This document shows positions 2,253-64,000 of a stretch of DNA of 64,000 nt, in pieces. The position numbers and the translations under genes are program-made. Position 1 is the first letter of the stretch. Every line of letters starts with the position of its first letter. The notes under the pieces are model-generated. The model was not told where the DNA came from, did not search any database, and was given only the letters and a program-made list of their open reading frames with translations. Location: contig SVAZ01000001.1 of assembly GCA_015059145.1 (NCBI GenBank), forward strand, positions 124,001 to 188,000, in the 5' to 3' direction. The DNA comes from Erysipelotrichaceae bacterium. Lineage in GTDB: Bacteria; Bacillota_I; Bacilli_A; Acholeplasmatales; Anaeroplasmataceae.

Positions 2253-4874
2253 ATGAAAAAGTGGGTTTATCTTTTTGAAGAAGGAAACGCTAACATGAGA
2301 GAGCTATTAGGTGGCAAGGGAGCCAATCTTGCCGAGATGACTAATTTAGGTCTTCCTATTCCTCATGGATTTACAATTACAACAGAAGCTTGTATGGATT
2401 ATTTTATTAATAATGGTGTTATTAGAGATGATATATTAGACCAAGCAAATAAAGCATTAAAGCTATTAGAGGAAAAGCAAGGAAAAAAATTTGGAGATAT
2501 TGACAATCCATTATTAGTTTCAGTGCGTTCTGGTGCTCGTGCATCAATGCCAGGTATGATGGATACAATTTTAAACCTAGGCTTAAATGATCAATCTGTA
2601 AAGGGATTAGCTAGTAAAACTGGTAATCCTAGATTTGCGTATGACTCATACCGTAGATTTATTCAAATGTTTTCAGATGTAGTTATGGGCTTAGCTAAGA
2701 GTGAGTTTGAGCACGTATTAGCTAAGATTAAATCTGAAAAGGGCTACACATATGATTATGAGTTAACTAGTGAGGATTTAGTTGAGGTAGTTAATACATA
2801 TAAGGCATTCTATAAAGAAAACCTAAATGTAGAATTCCCACAGGATCCTAATGAGCAATTATCTTTAGCAATTGAGGCTGTATTTAAATCTTGGAATAAT
2901 GAAAGAGCTATTTATTATAGAAAGCTAAATGATATTCCATCTGATTGGGGTACTGCAGTTAATATTCAATCAATGGTATTTGGTAATATGGGTGATACAT
3001 CTGGTACAGGTGTAGCATTTACTAGAAATCCAGCTACTGGTGAAAAGAATATTTTTGGTGAATATTTAATTAATGCTCAGGGTGAGGATGTTGTTGCAGG
3101 TATTCGTACACCTTCACCAATTTCTAGATTAGAAATAGATATGCCTTTAGTTTATAAGGATTTTATTAGAATTGCAGATATATTAGAAAATCATTATCAT
3201 GATATGCAGGATATGGAATTTACTATTGAAAATGGTAAGCTATATTTCCTACAAACTAGAAATGGTAAAAGAACAGCACAGGCTGCATTAGAAATTGCAT
3301 GTCAAATGGTTGATGAGGGTATGATTACTAAGGAAGAGGCAATATTAAGAATTGAAGCTAAAACATTAGATCAACTATTACACTCTAAATTTGATGAAGA
3401 GGATATGAAGACTAAGGCTTGTATTGGTAAGGGTCTTCCTGCATCACCTGGTGCTGCAGCTGGTAGAGTATATTTCACAGCTATGGATGCGAAAGAGGCA
3501 GCTAAAAGTGGTCAAAGAGTTATATTAGTAAGATTAGAAACATCACCTGAGGATATTGAGGGTATGCATATAGCTCAAGGTACTTTAACATGTCATGGTG
3601 GTATGACTTCACATGCAGCGGTTGTTGCTCGTGGTATGGGTAAGGCTTGTGTATGTGGATGCAATAACTGTGATATCGATGAGGTAGGAAAAACTATGAC
3701 TTTAGGTGGAAAGCTTATTCGTCAAGGTGACTACATTTCATTTGATGGTTCAACTGGTTACATTTATTATGGTGACATTAAAACTAACCCTGCTCAAATT
3801 GATGGTAATCTAGAAAAGATTATGGCATGGGCAGATGAATATAGAACATTACAAATCAGAACAAATGCTGATACTGTAAAGGATGCAAAAAGAGCTAGAG
3901 AATTTGGTGCTGAGGGAATCGGCTTATGTCGTTCTGAGCATATGTTCTTTGGTTCAGAAAGAATTCCTGAGATTCGTAAGATGATTTTAGCTAGAAATAC
4001 TCGTCAAAGAGAGGAAGCATTAGTTAAGCTTGAGGAATTCCAATATGAGGATTATAAGGGATTATATGAGGTTATGGCTGGCTTACCAGTTACAATCCGT
4101 TTATTAGATCCACCTCTACATGAATTCCTACCTAAGGCTGATGACATTCGTGATTTAGCAGCTGAAATGGGTAGAGAAATAGAAGAGGTAGAGGCACATT
4201 GTACAGAGCTACATGAATTTAATCCTATGATGGGTCATAGAGGATGTCGTTTAGCAATTACTTATCCAGAAATTGCTCAAATGCAAGCAAGAGCTATTAT
4301 TCGTGCCGCAATTGATGCATCTAAGACGATAGGCCAAAATGTAAAGCCTGAAATTATGGTGCCACTAATTGGTGATGTTAAGGAATTACAAAATGTAAAG
4401 GCTACATTAGTAAATGAAATTGAAAATGTTATGGCACAAAAGGGTGTTAAGCTAGATTATTCAATTGGTACTATGATTGAAACACCACGTGCTGCATTAT
4501 TATCTGATGAAATAGCACAAGAGGCTGAATTCTTCTCATTTGGTACAAATGATTTAACTCAAATGACATTTGGTTTATCACGTGATGATGCTGGTAAATT
4601 CTTGAATGATTATTATCATAAGCATATTTATGAATCAGATCCATTTGCAAAGCTAGATCAAAATGGTGTTGGTAAATTAATACAATTAGCAGCAAGCCAA
4701 GGTAAAAAGGTTAGACCTGAATTACATTTAGGTATTTGTGGTGAGCATGGTGGAGAGCCATCAAGTATAGAATTTGTAAATCAAATTGGTTTAGATTATG
4801 TATCTTGTTCTCCATATAGAGTACCTATTGCTAGATTAGCAGCAGCTCAAGCATCTATAAAACTTAACAAATAA
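2253..4874 (+). CDS. ppdK: Pyruvate, phosphate dikinase
   Basis: Interconverts PEP, AMP and PPi with pyruvate, ATP and Pi in the cytosol; in anaerobic fermenters it often replaces or complements pyruvate kinase in PPi-dependent glycolysis. At 873 aa it has the usual PPDK length. Domain order is canonical: N-terminal nucleotide-binding domain (GGKGANLAEM near residue 22, VSVRSGA near 90), the phosphohistidine domain with GGMTSHAAV (catalytic His454), and a C-terminal PEP-binding TIM barrel ending in LGICGEHGG (catalytic Cys829). It is monocistronic: it has its own promoter and terminator, and no PpdK regulatory kinase gene is adjacent. Confidence 0.97.
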   Translation: MKKWVYLFEEGNANMRELLGGKGANLAEMTNLGLPIPHGFTITTEACMDYFINNGVIRDDILDQANKALKLLEEKQGKKFGDIDNPLLVSVRSGARASMPGMMDTILNLGLNDQSVKGLASKTGNPRFAYDSYRRFIQMFSDVVMGLAKSEFEHVLAKIKSEKGYTYDYELTSEDLVEVVNTYKAFYKENLNVEFPQDPNEQLSLAIEAVFKSWNNERAIYYRKLNDIPSDWGTAVNIQSMVFGNMGDTSGTGVAFTRNPATGEKNIFGEYLINAQGEDVVAGIRTPSPISRLEIDMPLVYKDFIRIADILENHYHDMQDMEFTIENGKLYFLQTRNGKRTAQAALEIACQMVDEGMITKEEAILRIEAKTLDQLLHSKFDEEDMKTKACIGKGLPASPGAAAGRVYFTAMDAKEAAKSGQRVILVRLETSPEDIEGMHIAQGTLTCHGGMTSHAAVVARGMGKACVCGCNNCDIDEVGKTMTLGGKLIRQGDYISFDGSTGYIYYGDIKTNPAQIDGNLEKIMAWADEYRTLQIRTNADTVKDAKRAREFGAEGIGLCRSEHMFFGSERIPEIRKMILARNTRQREEALVKLEEFQYEDYKGLYEVMAGLPVTIRLLDPPLHEFLPKADDIRDLAAEMGREIEEVEAHCTELHEFNPMMGHRGCRLAITYPEIAQMQARAIIRAAIDASKTIGQNVKPEIMVPLIGDVKELQNVKATLVNEIENVMAQKGVKLDYSIGTMIETPRAALLSDEIAQEAEFFSFGTNDLTQMTFGLSRDDAGKFLNDYYHKHIYESDPFAKLDQNGVGKLIQLAASQGKKVRPELHLGICGEHGGEPSSIEFVNQIGLDYVSCSPYRVPIARLAAAQASIKLNK

Positions 4875-43870: not shown

Positions 43871-45515
43871 TATTCATAGCTTCTATAAATAATTCCTTAG
43901 GTAATGCTTTATAGGTTGAATTTGTAAGCTTGTTATTATTAATATTTCCGCACCATACTGCATATAGATTATTTTCATTAAATCCGATAAGATAAGAATC
44001 ATAATCTGTTAGTCCACTTTTACCATAGCATTTATCCTTTAATCTATAGGATAAATATCCACATGTGGAATGTGGTATAGTAGAATCGAATGGAGCTTCT
44101 AGTAGAAGCTTTATTTTATTTATTATTGAAATATCATTTATTATTTCCTTAGATACTACAGTCTTTAATCCATTTATAGAGCTTATGAATCTTGGCTTGA
44201 TATAATATCCCTCACTAAAAAATTGAAAGTATATTCTAGCTAAATGATTTAAAGACATTCCCACGCTTCCTAATGCTAGTGATGGATATGGGCTTGAGGT
44301 TATATTATATTTTTTTAGGTGATTAACTAATGTATACATTCCTAAATTTAGATGAATTTTTATTGCATAAATATTATCTGAAACAGCTAAAGCCGTACGC
44401 ATATTTATTTTATTAAAGTAGTTGCTATTTGAATTGGTAATTGTTGTAAGCTTATTCTTATAGGTAAATGAGTATGGGCTACTTATATATGTAGTGTTTT
44501 CAAACCCACATTTTATTGCCTCATAATATAGTATTGGTTTTATGGTAGAACCAATATCTCTAATACCATTCATCGCAATATTGAAGCTTGATTTATAATA
44601 GTTCTGATCGCCAATACAACAGGTATAATAGCCGGTTTTATCAAGACCTATAATGCTATAGCTTATATCAAGCTCTTTAGATATAACTTCAGTTTTAGGA
44701 TTATATTTTGTATTTATCGTAATTAATTCATTAAACTTTCCACAATAGCTTAAGGAATTAAATTCATTAATTACTTGGTCTATATAAAACATTCGATTTG
44801 AATTTATATAGCTAGTATTAATATTTAATTCAATAGGGGTAATTATTTCATCATAGCTTGATTGAATTAATCTTTTATCTAATAATATTTTGGCAATTTG
44901 ATTTTTCTTTTTATTCCATTTTTCTAAATTGTTAGAATAAATAGTAGGAGCGTTCCATAATGCTATAAATGATATCATTTCCTTTTTGGATAAATCTTTA
45001 ATCTCTTTATTATAATAATATCTCGCAGCATTTTTAAGTCCATATATAGAATGACCAAAATATATAGAAGCTAAATATTCATTAAGTATTTCATTCTTCT
45101 CCATTTTGTTTTCTAGCTTAATGGCTAAATATATTTCAACAAGCTTTCTACTTATTTTTTTCTCATTACTTAAATAGGTGTTTTTAATATATTGCTGAGT
45201 GATTGTAGATGCACCTTCAGCATTATTAGAGGTTATATTTGAAAAGAAGGATTTTATAATTCTTTTAATTGAAAAGCCATTATGGCTATAGAAATCTTTA
45301 TCCTCTATAGCTAATATATATGAGAGATATTCTTCATTAATCTCATTAGGATTTATCAGATTTGATTTATTGGCATTAATCAAATATGCAATTTCATTGT
45401 TATCTTTATCCTTAATAAGTATTCTAGCGTTTGTATTAATCGGAACAGATAATAGAATAATAAGTAATAGAAGTACCATTGATATTATAGATATAATAAA
45501 AGCTTTTCTTTTCAT
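43863..45515 (-). CDS. Class A penicillin-binding protein (transglycosylase/transpeptidase)
   Basis: Bifunctional peptidoglycan synthase, 550 aa from ATG 45515. Membrane anchor at about 5-27. GT51 domain: catalytic Glu71 in EDKDFYSHNG, GASTITQQ (101-108) and the ILNEYLASIYFGHSIYG motif. Transpeptidase domain: Ser323-xx-Lys (STIK), SDN and KSG. It lacks the large C-terminal extensions of PBP1, making it compact. It shows that this organism makes a peptidoglycan wall, unlike true Mollicutes. Confidence 0.93.
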   Translation of the reverse strand: MKRKAFIISIISMVLLLLIILLSVPINTNARILIKDKDNNEIAYLINANKSNLINPNEINEEYLSYILAIEDKDFYSHNGFSIKRIIKSFFSNITSNNAEGASTITQQYIKNTYLSNEKKISRKLVEIYLAIKLENKMEKNEILNEYLASIYFGHSIYGLKNAARYYYNKEIKDLSKKEMISFIALWNAPTIYSNNLEKWNKKKNQIAKILLDKRLIQSSYDEIITPIELNINTSYINSNRMFYIDQVINEFNSLSYCGKFNELITINTKYNPKTEVISKELDISYSIIGLDKTGYYTCCIGDQNYYKSSFNIAMNGIRDIGSTIKPILYYEAIKCGFENTTYISSPYSFTYKNKLTTITNSNSNYFNKINMRTALAVSDNIYAIKIHLNLGMYTLVNHLKKYNITSSPYPSLALGSVGMSLNHLARIYFQFFSEGYYIKPRFISSINGLKTVVSKEIINDISIINKIKLLLEAPFDSTIPHSTCGYLSYRLKDKCYGKSGLTDYDSYLIGFNENNLYAVWCGNINNNKLTNSTYKALPKELFIEAMNIN

Positions 45516-53493: not shown

Positions 53494-54033
53494 TTATTTT
53501 GGGGTCGTTATTTTTAAGAATCCATATGTGTTAACTAATACGATAAAAAAGATGCTTTGAGTTATTGATCTATCCATTCTCTGATGGATAGGTTCAATTA
53601 GATGTCTTTTCTCTTGGTATCGTAAATATTGGTTGTGAGCAACAGGATCAAATGCATAAATAAGAGCTAGTGATACTCCTGCGTCAAAAACTATTTCTCT
53701 TGGTCTTAATGTAAATTCAGTTTGATTTGTTTGGCTAGCTACAAGGTTGAACACAAAAGCGTAGGCTACAGTTGAAAATAATACAACCGCAAATGGATCC
53801 ATGTAGATTGACAAAAATGCTACAAGTGCTCCACTGGCTACTGCTGCATAATATGAGGCGATGCTGCTTATTTGGATGTCTTTTATTACTATTGCCTCGT
53901 TATATAGTAGGGTGGATAATACGATGTCAGCTATAAATTGTGAAAGCACGCCAGTTTTAGCACCATTAAGTAGATTTGGAAGTATATGGCTTCTATTTAA
54001 TGCTTTATGATATTCCATGTTATAGCCTGTCAT
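53494..54033 (-). CDS. Hypothetical membrane protein, 179 aa
   Basis: Not recognised. About four hydrophobic segments (near 33-50, 60-80, 82-103, 155-172) with a basic loop (RYQEKRHLIEPIHQRMDR) before the last. AAAGGGTG lies before ATG 54033. It is divergent from the c-di-GMP riboswitch operon and separated from prfA by a terminator, so it is probably monocistronic; a link to the surface operon is possible but unproven. Confidence 0.6.
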   Translation of the reverse strand: MTGYNMEYHKALNRSHILPNLLNGAKTGVLSQFIADIVLSTLLYNEAIVIKDIQISSIASYYAAVASGALVAFLSIYMDPFAVVLFSTVAYAFVFNLVASQTNQTEFTLRPREIVFDAGVSLALIYAFDPVAHNQYLRYQEKRHLIEPIHQRMDRSITQSIFFIVLVNTYGFLKITTPK

Positions 54034-54132
54034 AATTACACCCTTTCACTCTATTTTATGAACAAAATAGAAGCTTTGATGGGCGTTCCTCAAAATTTTT
54101 AGTAATATTATATAATAAATATAATATTTTAT

Positions 54133-54161
54133 TTGCATTTGTTAGAAAAAAAATGTATAAT
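54133..54161 (+). promoter_or_regulatory. Promoter of the riboswitch-controlled surface operon
   Basis: TTGCAT (54133-54138), 17-base spacer, TATAAT (54156-54161), about 20 bases before the aptamer. The rest of 54034-54132 shows no other feature. Confidence 0.75.
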
Positions 54162-54183
54162 CTTATTACAATGATATAAATAA

Positions 54184-54258
54184 ATGATATCAGGGGCAAA
54201 ACTAAAGGAATTTAGTGACGCAAAACTATAGGGTCCGCATATAGGATAGCCAGCTGCA
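54184..54258 (+). ncRNA. Cyclic di-GMP-I riboswitch aptamer (GEMM-I)
   Basis: The GEMM-I core is readable: AGGGGCAAA, a P2 hairpin ACTAAA-GGAA-TTTAGT capped by a GNRA tetraloop, GACGCAAA, then a P3 hairpin with CTAT/ATAG ends containing a GGTCC stretch that should form the tetraloop receptor, closing with ATAGCCAG. The P1 pairing is weak by eye. The ligand c-di-GMP typically controls motility, biofilm and surface genes, which fits the downstream operon. Confidence 0.85.
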
Positions 54259-54287
54259 GAATTTAATTTTGCACTTGGCTATTTTTT
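54246..54287 (+). terminator. Expression-platform terminator of the c-di-GMP riboswitch
   Basis: Stem ATAGCCA (54246-54252) / TGGCTAT (54276-54282) extended by TGCA/TGCA (54255-54258 / 54270-54273), then a T-run. Its 5' arm is part of the aptamer (end of P3 and the GCC closing segment), so ligand binding should block the terminator and turn the operon on. A competing long pairing GCAGAAT (54255 region) with ATTCTGC (54301 region) is also possible. Confidence 0.75.
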
Positions 54288-54339
54288 GTTTTATGGGCCG
54301 ATTCTGCAATTTTATTAATATTTTTAGGAGGGGATGTTT

Positions 54340-55446
54340 ATGAAAAAAAGTAGCTTAATTTCATCAATAGTTTCATTATGTATGACATCCCTTTTGTTAA
54401 TTTCCTGTGTTGTTGCCTGGTATTGTGTAAATATAACATCAAATGTATCAGGTGTGGTTGGATCCTCAAAGGAGGATAAGAACTTTGATTATGAATTATA
54501 TTATTACGATGGTGATTCTTGGGAGCTAATTGATGAAAAGCTTAGCTCGTTTATTCCATTAAAGCCAGGTGAGAAGGTTTATTTTAAGCTTATGATAGAT
54601 TCAAAATCAAATGAGGGCTCAACTTTAAAATGTAAATTTGAAAATATTAATACTACAGTAGCAAGTGATATTCTTTATAGCGAGTATACACAGGTTACTA
54701 GCAGTAATTATAATAAATTTGATTCTGACTTAGAGTATTATACGTTAAATAATGATGTATACACATTAAGCTATGTTGCACCATTTACAACAGATGGGCT
54801 TTTATCAACAAAAAGTGGAAACGTTTATACACCAGTAACATCTGGAGAATATAATTCAAATATTGATTATTATTTTACTGATGATACATATGGTTTAGGG
54901 TATACAAATAATGTGGCTAATATTTTTACAACAAATGGTAGCATCTATGTAAAAAGTGAATCTTTCTTTTACGAACAAGATGGGCAGATATATCATTTAT
55001 TTGATAGCGATGCAGCTGATTGTCCTTGGGTATATAATTCAGGAACTGGGGCAATTGTTGCTAGTGAAAGCATAAGCGATGTGATAATGTATTCAAATGT
55101 TGCATACGGAACTACTGAATATGAATATGCTCAAATTGTTAATTCACATATGGAGTATAGTGCTACATCGATAACACAAGAGGATTTTACAACAAACGGA
55201 AGCTTATATACATATACTGATGGAAATTATTCACCTGTAACATCAGGTAGCTTTGATGGTGATACAACGTATTATACAGTTGTATCTAGAGCGATTAATT
55301 CCTTAGATTTATTTAATAATCAGGTTGTTACTAATGGTAAGGAAACATATTACTTATTCTTTACATTAGAATATTTGGATTTAGCTGATAATAATCCATA
55401 TATTTTTCAAAATTTAAGTGTTACAAGATTAGCTATTGAGCACTAA
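54340..55446 (+). CDS. Exported TasA/camelysin-like protein with internal repeats, 368 aa
   Basis: First gene behind the riboswitch. N-terminal signal-anchor (about 5-28) runs into AWYCVN, resembling SipW-type signal peptides. The body is Tyr, Ser and Thr rich. Three internal repeats begin FTT[DN]G and continue as a Y-x-PVTSG-x-(5)-YY pattern (54784-54873, a divergent one near 54926, 55185-55276). I infer an extracellular structural or adhesive role. ATG 54340 has AGGAGGGG 6 bases upstream; the ATG at 54334 is too close. Confidence 0.75.
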   Translation: MKKSSLISSIVSLCMTSLLLISCVVAWYCVNITSNVSGVVGSSKEDKNFDYELYYYDGDSWELIDEKLSSFIPLKPGEKVYFKLMIDSKSNEGSTLKCKFENINTTVASDILYSEYTQVTSSNYNKFDSDLEYYTLNNDVYTLSYVAPFTTDGLLSTKSGNVYTPVTSGEYNSNIDYYFTDDTYGLGYTNNVANIFTTNGSIYVKSESFFYEQDGQIYHLFDSDAADCPWVYNSGTGAIVASESISDVIMYSNVAYGTTEYEYAQIVNSHMEYSATSITQEDFTTNGSLYTYTDGNYSPVTSGSFDGDTTYYTVVSRAINSLDLFNNQVVTNGKETYYLFFTLEYLDLADNNPYIFQNLSVTRLAIEH

Positions 55447-55471
55447 TTATTAGAAATGGAGGTCTTATATT

Positions 55472-56077
55472 ATGAAGAAAAATTCAATAGCCATTATTAT
55501 AGGAGCTCTATCTTTAGTGATTGTTGTAGCATCTGTGATAATTTATGCATGGTATGTAAATGTTAATAAGGTTGGGCATATTGATGCTCAAACTGATGGT
55601 ATTGTATTGACGTATAAAATTGATGATGAGTATAATTCGTCAAACAAATATAATATTGATAATTTAGCATTCTTTGATATAGATAACGCTAGTGAGACTA
55701 AATATTTCAAGGAGATGGCTACTAAAATTAAAATAAATTTAGAAAATAAGGGCAATGATTCAGTAACTGCTTCGATAGCATCAAGTAATACACCGATTAA
55801 GGTTTACGCACTTGATGGTATCACTGAAGAGTCGGTAGCTTATGCTAAGGTTATTTTTAGCACAAGCTCAGAATTGACGTATTCTGAAAATGAAAGTAAT
55901 ACAGTTTTAAGTGAGTATATTACTGGAAATGAAAGTATAAGTAATATTGAAATTGCACCTAAAGGTGAAGCTACTATTTATGCATATGTCTTTGGTGTTC
56001 AAGAGATAGATAGTGCTTCAAATGAGCAGTTTTTAAATTCTGAATATTCATTTGATATTCTTATTTCAGCTAATTAG
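55472..56077 (+). CDS. Exported TasA/camelysin-like small protein, 201 aa
   Basis: N-terminal hydrophobic segment (about 6-27) ends in IIYAWYVNVNKVGHIDAQTDGI, the same 'AWYVN' context as the gene before it and similar to TasA/CalY proteins after SipW cleavage. The remainder is beta-rich with many Ser, Asn and Glu (acidic, soluble), as expected of a donor-strand or fibre subunit. GGAGG lies before the ATG. Membership of the family is inferred from pattern, not homology search. Confidence 0.7.
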   Translation: MKKNSIAIIIGALSLVIVVASVIIYAWYVNVNKVGHIDAQTDGIVLTYKIDDEYNSSNKYNIDNLAFFDIDNASETKYFKEMATKIKINLENKGNDSVTASIASSNTPIKVYALDGITEESVAYAKVIFSTSSELTYSENESNTVLSEYITGNESISNIEIAPKGEATIYAYVFGVQEIDSASNEQFLNSEYSFDILISAN

Positions 56078-56097
56078 ATGAAGGGAGAAGAACAGCT

Positions 56098-56805
56098 ATG
56101 AAAAAGAAAATTTTAATAATATGTTCTATAGTAGTAGCTGTTCTATCTATTGTTTCGGTATATGCAGCTTATAGCTATAGTAAATCAATAGATGGCGATG
56201 CCACTACGGGTGAAGTAGAGGTTATATCAAAGCATTTTTTATTTTACGATATAGTTAATGATGTTAGATCTAACACTCCTATGGAATTTGATGTTAATCA
56301 AAATGTTATAGATGAAGAAAATGGTATTAATATTTCACAAGGTAAAATTACTAGCTATGCTTCTAAAAAGCTAGGATATTCTGATGATTTACCATATACT
56401 CACCTAAATCAATTAGGAATTAAGGCAGTATTTAAAGCTGAGGTTGACGTATATGTTAGATTACGTGTTCAGGATGCATGGAAGTCTAGAAAGATTTATA
56501 AGAATGGTAATATAAGCACTAATTCAATTGTTAAGGGTAATGCGATTTCTACAGCATTATCAAGTGATGAAAATTGGAAGTATGATGCGATTACTGGTTA
56601 CATATATTACAAAACTATGGTTGAGTCATCTAGTGATGAAATAACTATTGAATTTGATTTTCCAAGTGATTACTATTATCCTGTAGGTACTGCAAGCTAC
56701 CGTGAATCAGTAATAGTAGATTTATCTTTTAAGGTAGATATTGTTCAAGCAAATAGAGCATCTAGTAAGTGGGGATTTGATGTTGAAGATTATCTGGCAA
56801 ACTAA
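56098..56805 (+). CDS. Exported TasA/camelysin-like protein, 235 aa
   Basis: N-terminal signal (about 4-24) followed by AAYSYSKSIDGDATTGEVEV, which closely follows the TasA pattern (aromatic-Ser, then Ala-Thr and a Gly-x-hydrophobic strand). Contains VYVRLRVQDAW, FPSDYYYPVG and a C-terminal VDLSFKVDIVQ strand typical of TasA-like jelly rolls. AGGGAG precedes the ATG. Third of three related subunits, before the giant protein gene. Confidence 0.7.
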   Translation: MKKKILIICSIVVAVLSIVSVYAAYSYSKSIDGDATTGEVEVISKHFLFYDIVNDVRSNTPMEFDVNQNVIDEENGINISQGKITSYASKKLGYSDDLPYTHLNQLGIKAVFKAEVDVYVRLRVQDAWKSRKIYKNGNISTNSIVKGNAISTALSSDENWKYDAITGYIYYKTMVESSSDEITIEFDFPSDYYYPVGTASYRESVIVDLSFKVDIVQANRASSKWGFDVEDYLAN

Positions 56806-56825
56806 AAAGAAAGGAGCTTTTTGAT

Positions 56826-59800
56826 ATGAAAAGTTTATTTAAAAACAAAAAATTTTATATTGCATTAGTATCAATGCTCCTAATTTTTAGTATTGTTACA
56901 CTTGTCTTCGTTGTAAATAAAAACGAGGAATCTCAATTTGAAGCATATACTGATGGATATGTACCGCTTCAAAATGAGATTGGTGATATTGAGTATTCAC
57001 CTAGTGATAGATATGTAAACTTTGCAGATGTTTATAGTAGAAGTGGTGATACTGTTTCAAAGGTTGGATCTGAAAACTATACTAACAAAGTTTTAATGCT
57101 TTATACAGCAGCCGATTTATATGCATTTTCTTATCTTTGTAATTTAGCTGCTACAGCAGAAGAATTTTTAGCTTATGATTATGAGCTTTATTCAAATATT
57201 GATTATTCAAGTGAAACACCATTTATTCCAGTAGGCTGGGATGGAAGAAGCTTTAGCGGTAGCTTTAATGGTAATGGATTTGAAATATCTAATTTAAAGC
57301 TAGTTGAAATTGGTCAAACTAATGAAAATATTTATGAGAATATGGAGTATTATTCAATGTTCTGTGTAAATACAGGTACTATCACTAAATTAGGGTTAAT
57401 TAATACTTCAATGATTACTAATGGTAGTGTTTTTGAGCTTACTGGTGTTGCACCACTTGTTGGTTTAAATGAAAGCACTGGTGTTGTAAGCTATTGCTAT
57501 GTTAAGGATTTACGTGATGCGGAAACTGATGATGACGCAGGTATTATTACATCAGGTGGATATCAGATTTCAGGTTTAATGTTTGAGAATAAGGGTAAAT
57601 TTAATAATTCTTATGTTGCATATGGAATTGTGTGTAACTATTCAATTACTGATTATTTAGACTTTTCAGAAATCTTAAACGTTAATTCAGGTGAAACACA
57701 AAATTTATATTTTTATAATTCAACTATTAATTCTTATTCAAAAGAAAATGGTGTAGAAACTGTTGAATATGATCAATCTTTAGTAGGTAAAACTTTATCT
57801 AGAAATAGTTATGCTGAATATTGTGAGGACATTGCTTTAATTAATACATCAATGGCTTCTGATTCAACATGGTATACATCTTCATATTATGCTTCTACAA
57901 CAAATAGAATTAAATCGGCATTTAAAATTGAAACTCCAATTTTAAGAGGTTTAGTGTATAGTGTTATAGATGATGCTACTCAATTTGTAATTAATGATTT
58001 ATTTGATTTCTTATATATATTTGAGCTTATGAATAATAACTCAATTTTTGCTTCTAATGGTTGTAGATATTTATTAAATTCAGACATTGATTTATCTTAT
58101 GTTCCAGAAAGCTATTATGCATATGATTCAAGCTTTGCGGCAACATTTACTGGTGCTTTAAAGGATGATTCTGAAATAACTGTTAAGGATGTATTGGGAA
58201 ACGAAAGTAATTATTATACTATTTATAATGCTAAGATTACTAACTCTGTTATAAACGAGGGTATTGAATGCTTTGGTTTATTCCCTTGGTTAACAGGAAA
58301 AATTGAGAAGGTTAATTTCTATTATAGTGATTCAATTACAGGAATTACTTATTCAGATACTGCAGTAACACGATTAGCAATTGGTTTAGTATCAGGATTT
58401 GTTGATGGTGGTACAATTGAAAATGTTAATGTTTATGGAAACTGTACGCTTGCCACTAATAAGCAATATTTTGTTGGTGGTGTTGCAGGTGTTCTTACTA
58501 GTAAGGGTAATGTACTTAACTGTACAACAGCTGGTTCTTTAAATGGTGGATCAGGCTTATCAAGCTATAGTATTACTGAGGAATCTGGATATATTTCTGG
58601 TAATGCAATGGGTGGTGTTGTAGGATTTGCTACAAGCAGTACAGGTAATATTAATACATGCTTAGGTGCTATGACCTTAACTTCATCTACATATTCAACT
58701 GATATTTCATATGCTCAAAATATTGGTGGTGTATTAGGTGTTGGATATACTCAAAATTCTTTAAACCTAGATACTAAGAATATCAATCTATCTAATAAGG
58801 GAAGTATTACAATCGGTAGTGTATCATCAGCAAATTATGGTTATATTTATGCTGCTGGTGTAATTGGTAGATTATTAGGTATAAGTGAGCAAATCAATGC
58901 ATTATATAATCAAGGTGATATTATCGTTTATGGTAACTCACCAAAGAATGATCATTTCGTTTCTGGTGTAATGAATGCTGAATTACTATCTACATCAACT
59001 TCATATTTAAATTCATCACCATTAAGAAATAATAAGGGTAAGACTATTCTTTTAGCAGGTGGTTTATCTAATGCTGGTACATTTACTTTAAATAACACTA
59101 ACGGAAAGATTAATTTAGCAGGTGTCATTTATTTAAATTCTAACAGCACTGGAAATAGATTTATATCAGAGCTATCTGGTGTTTATAATTTAGAGTATAA
59201 ATATACAGTTAGCAATTCTACTAATGTTAAGACTAAGACATCTACTCAAGCATTTAGCATGAATCAAATCTACACTTATGCTGCATGCTTAGCTACAAGT
59301 GGTGTTTGTGATGATAATGTTGTTAATGTTGAGACAATTTATAATTTAAGAGATTATGAATATATTACTACAGCAAATTTAACATCTAATATTAAATATT
59401 CTGGATGTATTTTAGGTAAATACATTAACATCACAGATGCTAGAAATGAAGGAGATATTACATATACAATATCTAATTCAATTACTAATAGTTCATTTGT
59501 TACTGTAGGTGTTTTTGAAGAGGTAACAAGTGGATATATGGTAACTGATGTTTATAATTCAGGAAACATTCATTTAGATACTGCTAATACTATTACTTCA
59601 AATTTATATTTTAATGGTATTTGTTATGCTAACTACAATGGCTTTAGCTCAAGTGAGCATAGTAAGTTTAATCCTTTATCAAATAATTATGATAATGCTA
59701 AGGAAGGCTCATTAAATAATGCTATTAATAATGGCGATATTACTGTTACAAATAGTACTCAGTATACAAATCTTACTTATAATGATGAAAGTATGATCTC

Positions 59801-62800
59801 AAGTAATGGTGGTCAAACTATCGGTACAATTTATCCAAGTGTTAACAATGCACCTTCAAATTATATAGTTGGTAATATCAATATAAGTGGTATTACATAT
59901 TTGAATTATTCAGTTATTACAAATACATTTAATCTAGGTGATATGTTTGGTGCTAACTATATAACATCAACATCTACAACATATGAGGTTAATTCAGCTG
60001 GTATAAGTATTTTAAATATATCTGAGTATTCTTACATTTTAAATAGTGCAAATAATGGTACAATTTTAGCATGTAATTTATCAGGTGTTTATGATGGTGC
60101 AACGCAATCAAATGTTTCAGCTGCAGGTATTTCAATTAGAAATAATAGAACTGAGGCAAATGGTGATTATAACTCAAATAATAATCATTCTAAGCAGTTG
60201 ATATCATATACTATTAATTATGGTACAGTTATTGCTTATGATAATAGAGAAAATATTACATCATCTAATATGGCACCAAATAGTAGTGCTGCTGGTATCC
60301 TATCTATGGGTGTTTGTAATATTTTAAATACAGTTAACTACGGTAACATTTATGGTAATGAGACATCAAGTGGTATTTTCGGTGTAGTTTATTTTGAGGA
60401 CTTCCAAAGTGAGGTTACATCAACTAATACTGTATCACTTGCAAACTCAATTAATTACGGTAATGTTAAGCTAATTGAAAAGGGTGCTAACAAATTCAAG
60501 GATATTACATCAATCAGACCAGTTTATAGTGATATTTTAAATTTCTTTGATGATGACTTTGGAGATTTTGCAAAGAATTCAATTCCGCTAGAATATGCAA
60601 ATACAACCTTCTCTGGCTCTATTTTTGCGTTACTAAACTTTAATGGTAGTGCAAATGCTAACTACGTTACAATTAGATATTTAATTAACTTCTTAGATTA
60701 TGTACCATTCGTTGGTGCAGAGGCTCAAACACCTGATACAGTAACAGTAGACGTTACTAATATGTATTCAGCGTATAAAACTTATGAGGCCGGTGTATAT
60801 TTATCAGATACTTACTTAAATGAGTCTATGACATATTCACCACTTACTACAGGTAGCGAAACTATAAGCACTGGTACATATTATGGTGTATTTAATGAGA
60901 ACTTTGAATTTAGAAAAGCAATTGAGGGTAATTTAAATCTAAATACTAATGATTATCCAACAGATCAATTCTTAACTGACTATTTTCAATTCGTTGGTTA
61001 TACTAAGATTAATGGAACATTGCTAGATAAGATTGGCTGGAGAAATATTGCTTATTCTACAGCTGCTAACGACTTTGCAAGAAGCCTAGATGGTGTTGCG
61101 TTATTCCTAGACAAATATCAAACAGTAAACGGAAACACATATTCTAATGATATTGATACTGCGTTAAATGCAGGTACATGGATTAATTATTGCTCAGATG
61201 AAATTGTGGATGAATTAATTTCTAAATTGTTTACTGAGGATTTAACTTTATCTGATTTTGAAAATATTATTAATTATGTATTCTCTTCAAGCTGTGAGGA
61301 ATCAGTATATATAACACAAGAGCTTCGTCAAAGCATAATTGAATATTTAGTTAATAATAATCCTGATGCGATATTATCTTCAAATTTATTAACATTTGAT
61401 AATGTAAATAGCTATTCATCAGTTTTAGCAGAAGTATTGTCTACAAATAGCGATAATGAGGTTAAGAACCAAATTAAGCTTGCATTAGATACTTATATTA
61501 GTAATGTCGATGATGCATCTCGCAAAGATTTATTAGTAGACTATTTGAATTATTTAGGTACAAATGGTTCTACATTCTTTAGTAATAATTCAGAACAAGC
61601 GCGTTATGATTTAGCGGTTTCGTTCTTTGAAAATATTGATGATTCAGCTTTCTATTCAGCTTTATATTATTCATTAAGTGATTCATCAAGAGCTATTATT
61701 GATAATATAGAATCTGCAAATTTAAAATTGTATAGTTCTTATAATTCATTTACTGCTCAAGAAAAGCTAGATTTTTATTTAAATATTTTATCTGACAATA
61801 CTAATAATATGTCAACATATTTAGATACAATGTCAGATGATATAAATTTATATACAGAGCTTAATCAAAAGGGCTATGCAATTAGTAATTTTGATAGCTA
61901 TTTAGATTCAGCTTCAATCACTTCATCAGCAAGTGATATTAGTACAATTACAGAAAGAGTAAATTTATATAATCAAATTAGAACTACTGAAACATTTAAA
62001 AATTATATGAATTCTAAGAATATTTCTACAATTGGCTCTGATAATACATATAGCTATGTCGCAAAGGCTACAGAGCTTAGAAATACTTTTAGATCAGATT
62101 ATGCACCAATTTCTGACTCTAATGATGAAAGTAAGCCAGGATGGTCTGGTGATTTAGCATATACATATGCTACTAATGTTACTCCACAAACATATTTTTA
62201 TGGTCCATATATGAATAAAAGTAAGGATACCGTATTTAGTACTCAAATGCCAACTGCTGCTCCAACCACAGATGGTACAAGTGGTACTACTAATAATAAA
62301 TATTCTGTATTTGTATCTGATGATCAAGATTTTATGGATAGACAGGTACAGGAAGGTAATATTTATGATTATACAGCATATTATTATGAGTATGGTTCAG
62401 GTGCTTCAAATAATCAATTTACATCTAGATTAATTTTAGGTCCATATAATAATAACCAACCATACTTTAGAGGCGATTCAACTGATACGAATAAGGGTGT
62501 TGGTAAAAGGTATGATTATTACATGACCGACTTTACTGGTGTACAGGTTACAAGCTTAGAGGATGTATGGGTAACTGATGATGATGGTGTTGAATTTAAT
62601 GCTAGAGGCGGAGTTATTTCCCCATATTTCCGTCAAGCTAATACAGATATTTCTGGATACGACATTAATACTAGCACATATTCAACATATAACTATTATG
62701 GATATTTCTATATAACAGATGCGAATGGAGTAGTGCATTATTTCTCTTTAATCACAGAATCAGGTCGTGCTCACTCAAGTAACCATGGTAATCTTTTCAC

Positions 62801-64000
62801 TAATAATGGTACAAACTGTACTTACCACGGTTGGGCTGATTTTATTTGGAACTATGGTAAGACAGTATATCATGCTTATGCAACAGAAAAGCTACATCCA
62901 ACTAGAATTACTGGCTTCTGGAGACATAAGGATGGTAATTGGTGGTGGACAAATAAGGTAGCTGACAATCGAGCTCGTACATCATCTTATATTGATTATT
63001 CAATAGATGACTTACTTGCTTTAGATGGAGTTTTATCGTTGTATGATGGTGTTACGCAATCATCAGACGAAAGAGAAATTATCAATAATTTATTTAATAC
63101 TTATTTTATAGGTGATAATAATTTTGAAAGTGTTGTCAAGGCTTGCTTCCTAGAAAAGCTTGCATATACAATGGAAGAGAACATAGATATCGATTATATT
63201 AATAGCTTTGTTTCAGCTAATATTAATACTAGCAAAACTATTAATAGTAGTGCACCATTAAGCTATTTAGCTTACGATGGAACTACCGTTTACAACTACT
63301 TATTATCTATGTATAGTGGTGATTCAAAGTCTAAGCTATTACAAGCATTCTCAAGTAATACAGCTGTATTTAAGGAAATTGTTGAGATTATATTGAATGC
63401 TAAAAATAGCACTATGACAGATGCTGAAAGAGAGGAATATTTATCCTATGCATTGACTATAGAGGATATAATGAATGGAACAATCACATTAGATTCTTCT
63501 GGTAGAATCGTAGTTGATAATTTAGTTGATGAAACTGCACAAAGCATTTTTGATTCAACTATTTCTTCATCAAGCAATATGGAATTAAATTACTATGATT
63601 CATTGGGACAATATGGAATTACATTTGATAGCATTACGTTTGATACTAATGTAAATGCCACATCAGATGTCTTAAAGCTTGTTTATAATGCTAGTGGTGC
63701 TACAAATACAGAACTAATTATTAAGGATGATAATGGTGATGTTATTCAAACTCAGGCGATTACTACATCACCTGTTGAATATGAGTTAGATCTTACAACC
63801 TTATTACCATCCTCAATCACATTAGAAAGTAACCAAAATGTTATTTTATACTCTGTTGATTTAGTAACTACGGGAGTGTCCTCAGAAACAAATACTGTTT
63901 CTCTTGATACACAAACTGTTAATTCATCAAGTGTAGCATTAAGGAGCGTTGACACTTTAACTGCATCAGTTGAGGCTTTAGGATATAGCAATGTCGAAAT
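56826..64000 (+). CDS. Giant exported GLUG-like surface protein (3' end beyond window)
   Basis: Open frame of 2,391 codons with no stop to the window end; AAGGAG precedes the ATG. Signal-anchor at about 8-30. Residues about 130-1000 contain GLUG-like adhesin units (GWDGRSFSGSFNGNGFEISN near 136; GFVDGGTIENVNVYG near 524; repeated N-GDI/GNI and V-GGVxGV). About 1459-1759 is a helical, Asn/Ser/Asp-rich region without GLUG units. About 1979-2055 is rich in His and Trp (HSSNHGN; YHGWADFIWNYG; FWRHKDGNWWW). After that come further helical and then beta-rich segments. Probable adhesin or matrix protein; anchor or sorting motif not yet reached. Confidence 0.85.
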   Translation, partial: MKSLFKNKKFYIALVSMLLIFSIVTLVFVVNKNEESQFEAYTDGYVPLQNEIGDIEYSPSDRYVNFADVYSRSGDTVSKVGSENYTNKVLMLYTAADLYAFSYLCNLAATAEEFLAYDYELYSNIDYSSETPFIPVGWDGRSFSGSFNGNGFEISNLKLVEIGQTNENIYENMEYYSMFCVNTGTITKLGLINTSMITNGSVFELTGVAPLVGLNESTGVVSYCYVKDLRDAETDDDAGIITSGGYQISGLMFENKGKFNNSYVAYGIVCNYSITDYLDFSEILNVNSGETQNLYFYNSTINSYSKENGVETVEYDQSLVGKTLSRNSYAEYCEDIALINTSMASDSTWYTSSYYASTTNRIKSAFKIETPILRGLVYSVIDDATQFVINDLFDFLYIFELMNNNSIFASNGCRYLLNSDIDLSYVPESYYAYDSSFAATFTGALKDDSEITVKDVLGNESNYYTIYNAKITNSVINEGIECFGLFPWLTGKIEKVNFYYSDSITGITYSDTAVTRLAIGLVSGFVDGGTIENVNVYGNCTLATNKQYFVGGVAGVLTSKGNVLNCTTAGSLNGGSGLSSYSITEESGYISGNAMGGVVGFATSSTGNINTCLGAMTLTSSTYSTDISYAQNIGGVLGVGYTQNSLNLDTKNINLSNKGSITIGSVSSANYGYIYAAGVIGRLLGISEQINALYNQGDIIVYGNSPKNDHFVSGVMNAELLSTSTSYLNSSPLRNNKGKTILLAGGLSNAGTFTLNNTNGKINLAGVIYLNSNSTGNRFISELSGVYNLEYKYTVSNSTNVKTKTSTQAFSMNQIYTYAACLATSGVCDDNVVNVETIYNLRDYEYITTANLTSNIKYSGCILGKYINITDARNEGDITYTISNSITNSSFVTVGVFEEVTSGYMVTDVYNSGNIHLDTANTITSNLYFNGICYANYNGFSSSEHSKFNPLSNNYDNAKEGSLNNAINNGDITVTNSTQYTNLTYNDESMISSNGGQTIGTIYPSVNNAPSNYIVGNINISGITYLNYSVITNTFNLGDMFGANYITSTSTTYEVNSAGISILNISEYSYILNSANNGTILACNLSGVYDGATQSNVSAAGISIRNNRTEANGDYNSNNNHSKQLISYTINYGTVIAYDNRENITSSNMAPNSSAAGILSMGVCNILNTVNYGNIYGNETSSGIFGVVYFEDFQSEVTSTNTVSLANSINYGNVKLIEKGANKFKDITSIRPVYSDILNFFDDDFGDFAKNSIPLEYANTTFSGSIFALLNFNGSANANYVTIRYLINFLDYVPFVGAEAQTPDTVTVDVTNMYSAYKTYEAGVYLSDTYLNESMTYSPLTTGSETISTGTYYGVFNENFEFRKAIEGNLNLNTNDYPTDQFLTDYFQFVGYTKINGTLLDKIGWRNIAYSTAANDFARSLDGVALFLDKYQTVNGNTYSNDIDTALNAGTWINYCSDEIVDELISKLFTEDLTLSDFENIINYVFSSSCEESVYITQELRQSIIEYLVNNNPDAILSSNLLTFDNVNSYSSVLAEVLSTNSDNEVKNQIKLALDTYISNVDDASRKDLLVDYLNYLGTNGSTFFSNNSEQARYDLAVSFFENIDDSAFYSALYYSLSDSSRAIIDNIESANLKLYSSYNSFTAQEKLDFYLNILSDNTNNMSTYLDTMSDDINLYTELNQKGYAISNFDSYLDSASITSSASDISTITERVNLYNQIRTTETFKNYMNSKNISTIGSDNTYSYVAKATELRNTFRSDYAPISDSNDESKPGWSGDLAYTYATNVTPQTYFYGPYMNKSKDTVFSTQMPTAAPTTDGTSGTTNNKYSVFVSDDQDFMDRQVQEGNIYDYTAYYYEYGSGASNNQFTSRLILGPYNNNQPYFRGDSTDTNKGVGKRYDYYMTDFTGVQVTSLEDVWVTDDDGVEFNARGGVISPYFRQANTDISGYDINTSTYSTYNYYGYFYITDANGVVHYFSLITESGRAHSSNHGNLFTNNGTNCTYHGWADFIWNYGKTVYHAYATEKLHPTRITGFWRHKDGNWWWTNKVADNRARTSSYIDYSIDDLLALDGVLSLYDGVTQSSDEREIINNLFNTYFIGDNNFESVVKACFLEKLAYTMEENIDIDYINSFVSANINTSKTINSSAPLSYLAYDGTTVYNYLLSMYSGDSKSKLLQAFSSNTAVFKEIVEIILNAKNSTMTDAEREEYLSYALTIEDIMNGTITLDSSGRIVVDNLVDETAQSIFDSTISSSSNMELNYYDSLGQYGITFDSITFDTNVNATSDVLKLVYNASGATNTELIIKDDNGDVIQTQAITTSPVEYELDLTTLLPSSITLESNQNVILYSVDLVTTGVSSETNTVSLDTQTVNSSSVALRSVDTLTASVEALGYSNVE

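Follow-up and report, generated by a model that had tools for sequence, protein, structure and literature searches.

In Bacillus subtilis and Clostridium perfringens, the small exported subunits TasA (PMC9674648, PMC10269814) and BsaA (PMC7395162) carry SipW-type signal ends, are served by a dedicated SipW-type peptidase and, in the parts of these sources used here, are shown to form fibres. In Bacillus thuringiensis, a riboswitch for cyclic diguanylate (c-di-GMP) lies ahead of the gene for the surface adhesin Cap (PMC4933901). A further type of locus, CoCoPALM (Bell et al. 2024, PMC11090510), combines a McrB-like AAA+ protein, with an NxD motif and an N-terminal membrane stretch, with a DUF2357 protein and signal peptidase genes; the parts of that paper used here mention neither TasA nor SipW and leave CoCoPALMs to a later publication. 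Here we analyse an operon in a 64,000-nucleotide window (the whole stretch of DNA under study, bases 124001-188000 of contig C22) from an Erysipelotrichaceae bacterium with a 1.43 Mb genome in 34 contigs. In it, a c-di-GMP riboswitch precedes genes for three small exported proteins, SP1, SP2 and SP3, and for a giant exported protein. We read the operon as part of a c-di-GMP-commanded surface fibre or giant-adhesin system, processed by SipW-type peptidases and partnered with a CoCoPALM locus of the same genome, and put the probability of this reading at roughly 0.66. A first-pass annotation had proposed a c-di-GMP-switched fibre or giant adhesin; its c-di-GMP control, SipW signals and gene order held up, but its TasA/CalY, sortase and GLUG components did not.

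The sequence facts of the leader and the operon are solid. Rfam model RF01051 places a c-di-GMP-I (GEMM-I) riboswitch aptamer at 54185-54261 on the forward strand (52.0 bits, gathering score 35, E 2.8e-7), as annotated, and the other two Rfam matches over gathering score in the 64 kb are tRNAs. A terminator hairpin follows at 54245-54283 (+; RNAfold, -18.4 kcal/mol), its 5' arm overlapping the 3' end of the aptamer and a T-rich tail coming after it; the leader has a folding z-score of -2.70. As computed, the two folds are mutually exclusive. Because the terminator claims the aptamer's 3' end, it would form when c-di-GMP is absent, and a bound aptamer, keeping that end, would leave no terminator and let transcription proceed, which makes c-di-GMP a predicted ON signal.

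Relatives repeat this design. Eight of 10 SP1 aptamers share the overlap with a terminator, the exceptions being L037 and the first of a tandem pair in L045, and in eight of the nine riboswitch-bearing SP1 loci the terminator uses the aptamer's 3' end. Overlap was likewise found at all 10 sites tested ahead of T1, a gene of the CoCoPALM locus described below, where the terminator takes up no more of the aptamer than the foot of its last helix, together with the bases that follow, and at none of three sites ahead of GGDEF-only genes. Pairs of the terminator helix vary with compensation (one is C-G 13 times, T-A four times and T-G once) in an alignment given 22 leaders, of which three have no hairpin and one, from L065, has a hairpin that looks wrong. 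From these folds we infer, with good support, c-di-GMP-ON control of the window operon. Tandem c-di-GMP-I aptamers occur at some loci (L045:9904-10066; G065, G227, G168, G310, G175).

Downstream of the aptamer the annotated coordinates of three small exported proteins and a giant open reading frame (ORF) are borne out, all on the forward strand. SP1 occupies 54334-55446, although the ATG at 54340, better spaced from AGGAGGGG, is the likelier start; its signal ends in VVAWYCVN and BLAST finds relatives in 13 other loci. SP2 (55472-56077, signal end IYAWYVN) has relatives in 14 other loci, and SP3 (56098-56805, signal end VYAAYSYS) has a C-terminal VQANR...W motif whose Q, A, N, R and W are invariant in 15 of 15 aligned sequences. 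The giant, 3627 residues long, runs from 56826 to the window's edge at 64000 and 3.7 kb beyond it (end at L005:13710). BLAST finds relatives of it in 13 other loci, where contig ends truncate several. Its N-terminus has a hydrophobic stretch, and beyond residue 60 no 19-residue segment is strongly hydrophobic. Profile comparison joins SP2 to SP3 (probability 95, E 5e-8) and all three to the T family of the CoCoPALM locus (probabilities 95 for SP1, 91 for SP2, 80 for SP3); this agrees with the related N-termini noted earlier, the profiles aligning over just the first ~50 residues in a comparison without an unrelated-signal control.

The signal ends set the small proteins apart from the giant. 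A strict SipW-type motif, a small residue followed two positions on by an aromatic one past the hydrophobic stretch, occurs in 13 of 13 SP1, 15 of 15 SP2 and 13 of 15 SP3 proteins with a hydrophobic N-terminus (41 of 43 together). One of 13 giants has it, as do eight of 56 control ORFs. All eight motif-positive controls have AWF/SWF ends, and seven are traceable to CoCoPALM clusters. According to the relevant part of PMC10269814, ordinary signal peptidase I is hindered by an aromatic residue at P2', the position of a Phe in TasA, which SipW cleaves; the small proteins are therefore likely to be cut by SipW, and the giant is probably no such substrate. We infer, again with good support, that SP1-SP3 are processed by a SipW-type peptidase. 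The SipW-signal model TIGR04088, proposed as a check, matches none of the three window proteins; among relatives it reaches one of 14 SP1 members at E 0.088 and gives one outgroup T protein 13.5 bits, with a cut-off of 19. The first-pass annotation had named a missing riboswitch, or ordinary signal peptidase I signals with no TasA fold, as what would speak against it: the aptamer is present and the signals are SipW-type.

The gene order is conserved in relatives, as had been suggested might be seen. In a sample of 55 genomes of the same GTDB family, 31 of them graded good, SP3 is present in 14, host included, and the succession SP1-SP2-SP3-giant is repeated at 14 more loci spread over 13 other genomes; contig ends truncate two of these loci (SP1 missing in L039, the giant in L044). 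This recurrence is beyond chance. A riboswitch stands ahead of SP1 in 9 of 13 testable loci (the window, L035, L036, L037, L041, L042, L043, L045 and L047), L039 and L044 ending too near SP1 to judge. Eight full-length giants, of 3627-4336 residues, can be aligned over long stretches; in the L036 giant the hydrophobic N-terminal stretch is weak. The annotated GLUG likeness was not recovered: PF07581 has no match in residues 1-2391 at E<=1 or in the remainder at E<=0.01, and one relative reaches 17.5 bits, below the cut-off of 20.5. Sortase anchoring of the giant was rejected, LPxTG being absent from 14 of 14 giants (eight full length) and no sortase match being found in the host genome. A phage or plasmid origin was also rejected: phages gave no SP3 match, and AAA+ matches in 13 plasmid records stayed under 80% coverage and 60% identity. 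Length differences among SP1, SP2, SP3 and giants seem to come partly from TYY-rich inserts, and residues 272-314 of the host's SP1 match 3480-3522 of the Anaeroplasma bactoclasticum giant (48.8%, E 4.6e-6). The operon adjoins a 179-residue membrane-type gene (N179, window 53494-54033, minus strand), with 52-62% identical copies near riboswitch loci in G013, G049 and G050.

The operon and 6 kb beyond it (L005) hold no ORF like the host's SipW-type proteins at BLAST E<=1e-3. A suggested search for a SipW peptidase and a sortase was thus half answered: SipW-type peptidases are in the genome, though at another locus, and sortase gave no match. That locus, on contig C30, comprises two riboswitches, two GGDEF-EAL genes, six genes (T1-T6) for exported proteins, a SipW-type peptidase gene, an AAA+ gene, a DUF2357 gene and a second SipW-type peptidase gene. 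One peptidase exceeds the TIGR02228 cut-off (79.3 bits against 51.85) and the SipW model finds both, with scores under its cut-off; the DUF2357 protein matches PF09823 at 41.1 bits (cut-off 23.3). In the McrB-like AAA+ protein, Walker A and NxD (GTANKDDS) motifs accompany a hydrophobic stretch close to the N-terminus. Walker A is present in 24 of 24 tabulated AAA+ rows and NxD in 22, both misses belonging to family f14; the 24 rows count one contig twice (L088, L117). CoCoPALMs are described with an FtsB-like membrane and coiled-coil region fused to McrB; in the C30 AAA+ protein (P0005) a heptad-like segment is visible by eye besides the hydrophobic stretch. The T proteins (24 aligned) share a TTxFAWF-like start and, near the end, a WxEGWD motif with invariant W, E, G and D; those of the host match no Pfam or NCBIfam model over cut-off and no PDB sequence at E<=5. 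With its predicted McrB-like AAA+ with NxD, DUF2357 protein and signal peptidases, the C30 locus fits the CoCoPALM description. Two side observations concern such loci: the DUF2357 gene at L009:5519-6120 contains 72-bp and 162-bp tandem repeats coding repeated QAEDDEFLAALDAIPEA-like units, and in G052 (L124:13265-14577) two ORFs, one transposase-like by appearance, lie between the T genes and a SipW-type gene.

In relatives the two gene sets are linked. In A. bactoclasticum (ATCC 27112) both sets share a contig, which carries in a row a SipW-type gene, AAA+, DUF2357, a second SipW-type gene, three longer ORFs, a riboswitch, SP1, SP2, SP3 and a giant, with 5.3 kb from the second SipW-type gene to SP1. 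Among 20 loci chosen for their AAA+ protein, some of whose giant-less members are cut by contig ends, a giant-type ORF lies downstream of the CoCoPALM genes in eight (L111, L113, L115, L116, L117, L119, L121, L128); L128 carries SP3 and the giant. Of 25 tabulated loci, six of them chosen for SP3 (L088, L089, L090, L141, L143, L144), 13 have a giant, 11 with a BLAST-recognisable SP3. In L113, L115, L116 and L117 a second riboswitch immediately precedes the subunit-giant module; in L112 what follows it is a different exported pair. The window operon's flanking genes N179, HTH66 and N153 occur together in G050, as in G049, beside the riboswitch and T1 of a CoCoPALM locus. Among outgroup genomes, 49 have the AAA+ protein and 34 of these also have a riboswitch. 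Among the 38 tabulated, it lies on the same strand at most 8 kb upstream of the AAA+ gene in 26, mostly at ~3.6 kb, and a further one lies 3.8-5.2 kb past the AAA+ start in 14; the 11 left out of the table, ten of them from family f14, have no riboswitch. The A. bactoclasticum AAA+ gene is in two reading frames (L141:12429-13959), and between that organism's two gene sets (L141:6212-6313) lies a borderline group-II-intron match (32.2 bits, cut-off 32).

Co-occurrence points the same way. Family AAA+ orthologues (27 of 55 genomes) were called when full length at >=63% identity or as split pieces at >=59%. In the 31 good genomes, 17 have both orthologue and riboswitch, 14 neither and none is discordant (Fisher 3.8e-9, kinship ignored); over all 55 the counts are 26 both, one AAA+ only, ten riboswitch only and 18 neither. 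The ten riboswitch-only genomes are 64-84% complete, and the single AAA+-only genome, G019, was outside the good set because of contamination. Within genus g5, G049 and G050 have the riboswitch and a close AAA+ orthologue and the other nine genomes have neither. Across 296 genomes of the class, three separate searches (AAA+, riboswitch, SP3) treated as one sample gave 56 genomes with AAA+ and riboswitch, 16 with AAA+ only, 39 with riboswitch only and 185 with neither. The AAA+ cut-off there, a best score of ~390 bits or more, was set after a gap appeared in the scores, and 33 of 105 genomes with a match fell under it and were scored as lacking. SP3 was found in at least 15 of the 296, in a search that was not exhaustive (it missed the SP3 of G069, which BLAST sees in L111); 14 of the 15 have the AAA+ protein, against 58 of 281 genomes without SP3, and the fifteenth SP3 locus starts inside DUF2357 at a contig end. 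Linkage strongly supports a partnership of the window operon with CoCoPALM, as predicted from these gene neighbourhoods.

The riboswitches stand ahead of several kinds of gene. There are 108 c-di-GMP-I matches in 36 of the 55 family genomes, and the next gene was inspected at 33 (four in the host, 29 in relatives' loci): T1 follows at 14, SP1 at five and an SP1-like gene at one, a SipW-type peptidase at one, another FAWF-type protein at one, GGDEF/EAL genes at seven and other genes at three, with none in reach at one. At three GGDEF-only genes (the host's on C10, L064 and L070) terminator and aptamer do not overlap, and the terminator's 5' arm could form 10-11 nucleotides of pairing with the aptamer core (-14.6, -16.5 and -17.2 kcal/mol; pairings as strong arose in 3, 9 and 1 of 500 shuffles), a predicted OFF-switch design. 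EAL-type leaders are mixed: the host's site has no terminator, L056 and L061 have weak overlapping hairpins and L062 a strong one. The GGDEF protein retains its GGDEF motif, and the host's two EAL proteins retain EAL with degenerate GGDEF motifs. With ON surface genes and an OFF GGDEF gene, abundant c-di-GMP should increase expression of the surface genes and curb further c-di-GMP synthesis. In L112 (G073:C1:1022000-1041999; a 1,496,992-base genome, candidate Acholeplasma laidlawii), GGDEF-EAL, T, SipW-type, AAA+ and DUF2357 genes and three riboswitches form one cluster.

We propose the following model. When c-di-GMP is bound, the operon would yield three small exported subunits with SipW signals and a 3627-residue exported protein whose N-terminal signal or anchor is of the ordinary kind. 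The subunits would probably be cleaved in trans by the SipW-type peptidases of the second c-di-GMP-ON locus, C30, whose T1-T6, two peptidases, membrane-anchored McrB-like AAA+ protein and DUF2357 protein would act alongside as a CoCoPALM. The most likely joint product of both gene sets is a fibre or tether on the cell surface, on which the giant would be displayed for attachment; fibre formation and adhesion by the operon products are plausible on the genes found. The OFF-type GGDEF gene and the two EAL proteins beside the C30 locus would make the response self-limiting.

Several observations weigh against this reading. In the host the window operon and the C30 locus lie on different contigs. 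Four of the 13 testable SP1 operons (L034, L038, L040, L046) show no riboswitch even at E<=1, and L037 has an aptamer and no clear terminator. In the class, 16 of 72 AAA+ genomes have no riboswitch (11 of the 16 from family f14) and the 39 riboswitch-only genomes have no AAA+; the p-values, moreover, are overstated because the co-occurrence statistics ignore shared ancestry. The strict motif is present in 17 of 23 T proteins, and a looser signal motif does not discriminate: 10 of 13 giants have it, and so do 29 of 56 controls. TasA/CalY membership was rejected by family-model and PDB profile searches: no Pfam or NCBIfam match over cut-off to TasA/CalY was found for SP1-SP3, and profile searches gave them no PDB sequence relative, so that of the annotated "SipW-processed TasA-like" subunits the signal ends stand but the family does not. 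No recognised adhesion domain was found in the giant. The host's aptamer alone has a minimum-energy fold that differs from the Rfam fold, which may be expected because the ligand is absent from the calculation. Two weaker points also concern the leader. A simple terminator scan found no site in it, although the annotated terminator stands by RNAfold; and the annotated promoter, a promoter-like TTTGCA-18-TATAAT at 54132-54161 (+; consensus scan, 10 of 12 matches), is of a kind found four times in the region against 2.9 by chance.

Other explanations divide this evidence differently. The operon could encode a conventional biofilm fibre of SipW/TasA type together with a large adhesin, the AAA+ and DUF2357 genes being mere neighbours in some relatives, without a role in the system. 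The SipW-type signal ends and peptidases would suit this, as would the 12 of 20 AAA+-picked loci that show no giant, some of them cut by contig ends; we nonetheless think it quite unlikely, given the excess of AAA+ in SP3 genomes (14 of 15, against 58 of 281), the overlapping riboswitch design shared by both gene sets and the missing TasA model match. Binding a polymer, such as bacterial walls, chitin or plant fibre, and helping to digest it is also a rather unlikely role for the giant and its partners in place of attachment as such. This idea draws on the bacteriolytic habit of A. bactoclasticum and on the L112 cluster, which ends with a 745-residue protein bearing a CBM5/12 module (31.2 bits, cut-off 26.2), encoded with a 210-residue gene behind a riboswitch, and is countered by the giant itself, in which no catalytic Pfam domain appeared, either in residues 1-2391 at E<=1 or in the remainder at E<=0.01.

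Less probable still is a membrane-bound immune or surveillance device of the kind that McrBC relatives form, in which the McrB-like/DUF2357 pair would be switched on together with exported proteins forming a phage-masking coat. The NxD-bearing McrB-like AAA+ and DUF2357 proteins recall the related CoCoNuTs, predicted in the part of PMC11090510 used here to be RNA-targeting restriction systems, but no nuclease family was found in the C30 DUF2357 protein at E<=0.1, and the clusters hold signal peptidases and exported proteins. We thus prefer the c-di-GMP-commanded surface system with its CoCoPALM partner. A bolder version of it, which we think less likely than not, is that CoCoPALM is a McrBC-derived AAA+ pair turned from restriction to membrane motor, exporting or assembling a SipW-processed fibre with a giant adhesin on c-di-GMP command through ON riboswitches, in bacteria many of which are seemingly wall-less. 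If true, this would give wall-less Mollicutes a c-di-GMP output and CoCoPALMs a function.

Anaeroplasma is known as a wall-less genus, and A. bactoclasticum is bacteriolytic. The latter, placed by NCBI taxonomy under Mollicutes, shares its GTDB genus with the host, a narrower scope than the low-GC Bacillota lineage of the annotation. The host genome has three matches to the PF00905 transpeptidase, the weakest (48.5 bits) in the window at 44130-44612 (-), so the host may be walled. Among 13 SP3 genomes, PF00905 matches occur in 3, one of them the host, and are absent from 10 (G053 was outside the sample and several genomes are incomplete), and the idea of a system that exists solely for want of a wall was rejected. 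In A. bactoclasticum's GTDB genus, matches turned up in 6 of 27 genomes and were absent from 21, several genomes being incomplete; the genus may therefore mix walled and wall-less lineages.

A survey from 2008 counted 14 GGDEF/EAL proteins in wall-less Acholeplasma laidlawii and none in the mycoplasma genomes then sequenced (PMC2408644, relevant part), and the part of PMC5289693 used here reports riboswitches in A. laidlawii. Among the matches listed in our literature searches, no paper dealt with c-di-GMP targets in A. laidlawii, none described the whole gene set with c-di-GMP control and, by title, just the eLife paper and its preprint concerned CoCoPALM. The riboswitch clusters, including the candidate A. 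laidlawii one, offer a candidate c-di-GMP output in a culturable species, and CoCoPALMs, for which no tested function was found among those matches, would gain likely substrates and a signal; both c-di-GMP output and CoCoPALM function become testable questions. The window operon resembles the surface-facing half of a machine that many related bacteria carry and that has been little studied.

The window operon can be set beside the systems with which we began. It differs from TasA/SipW and BsaA/SipW, whose fibres are shown where ours is proposed, in having no detectable mature-domain homology, a peptidase outside the operon, c-di-GMP riboswitch control, a giant as its last gene and an AAA+/DUF2357 pair elsewhere in the genome. 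Like the Cap gene it follows a c-di-GMP riboswitch, but where that leads to a collagen adhesin, this one leads to three SipW-type subunits and then a giant without LPxTG in a genome without a sortase match. Unlike a CoCoPALM, it holds no McrB or DUF2357 gene of its own, these lying in the predicted partner locus. Membership of the TasA family is not supported, yet in its signals, subunits and peptidases the system appears to work like a SipW/TasA-type surface system.

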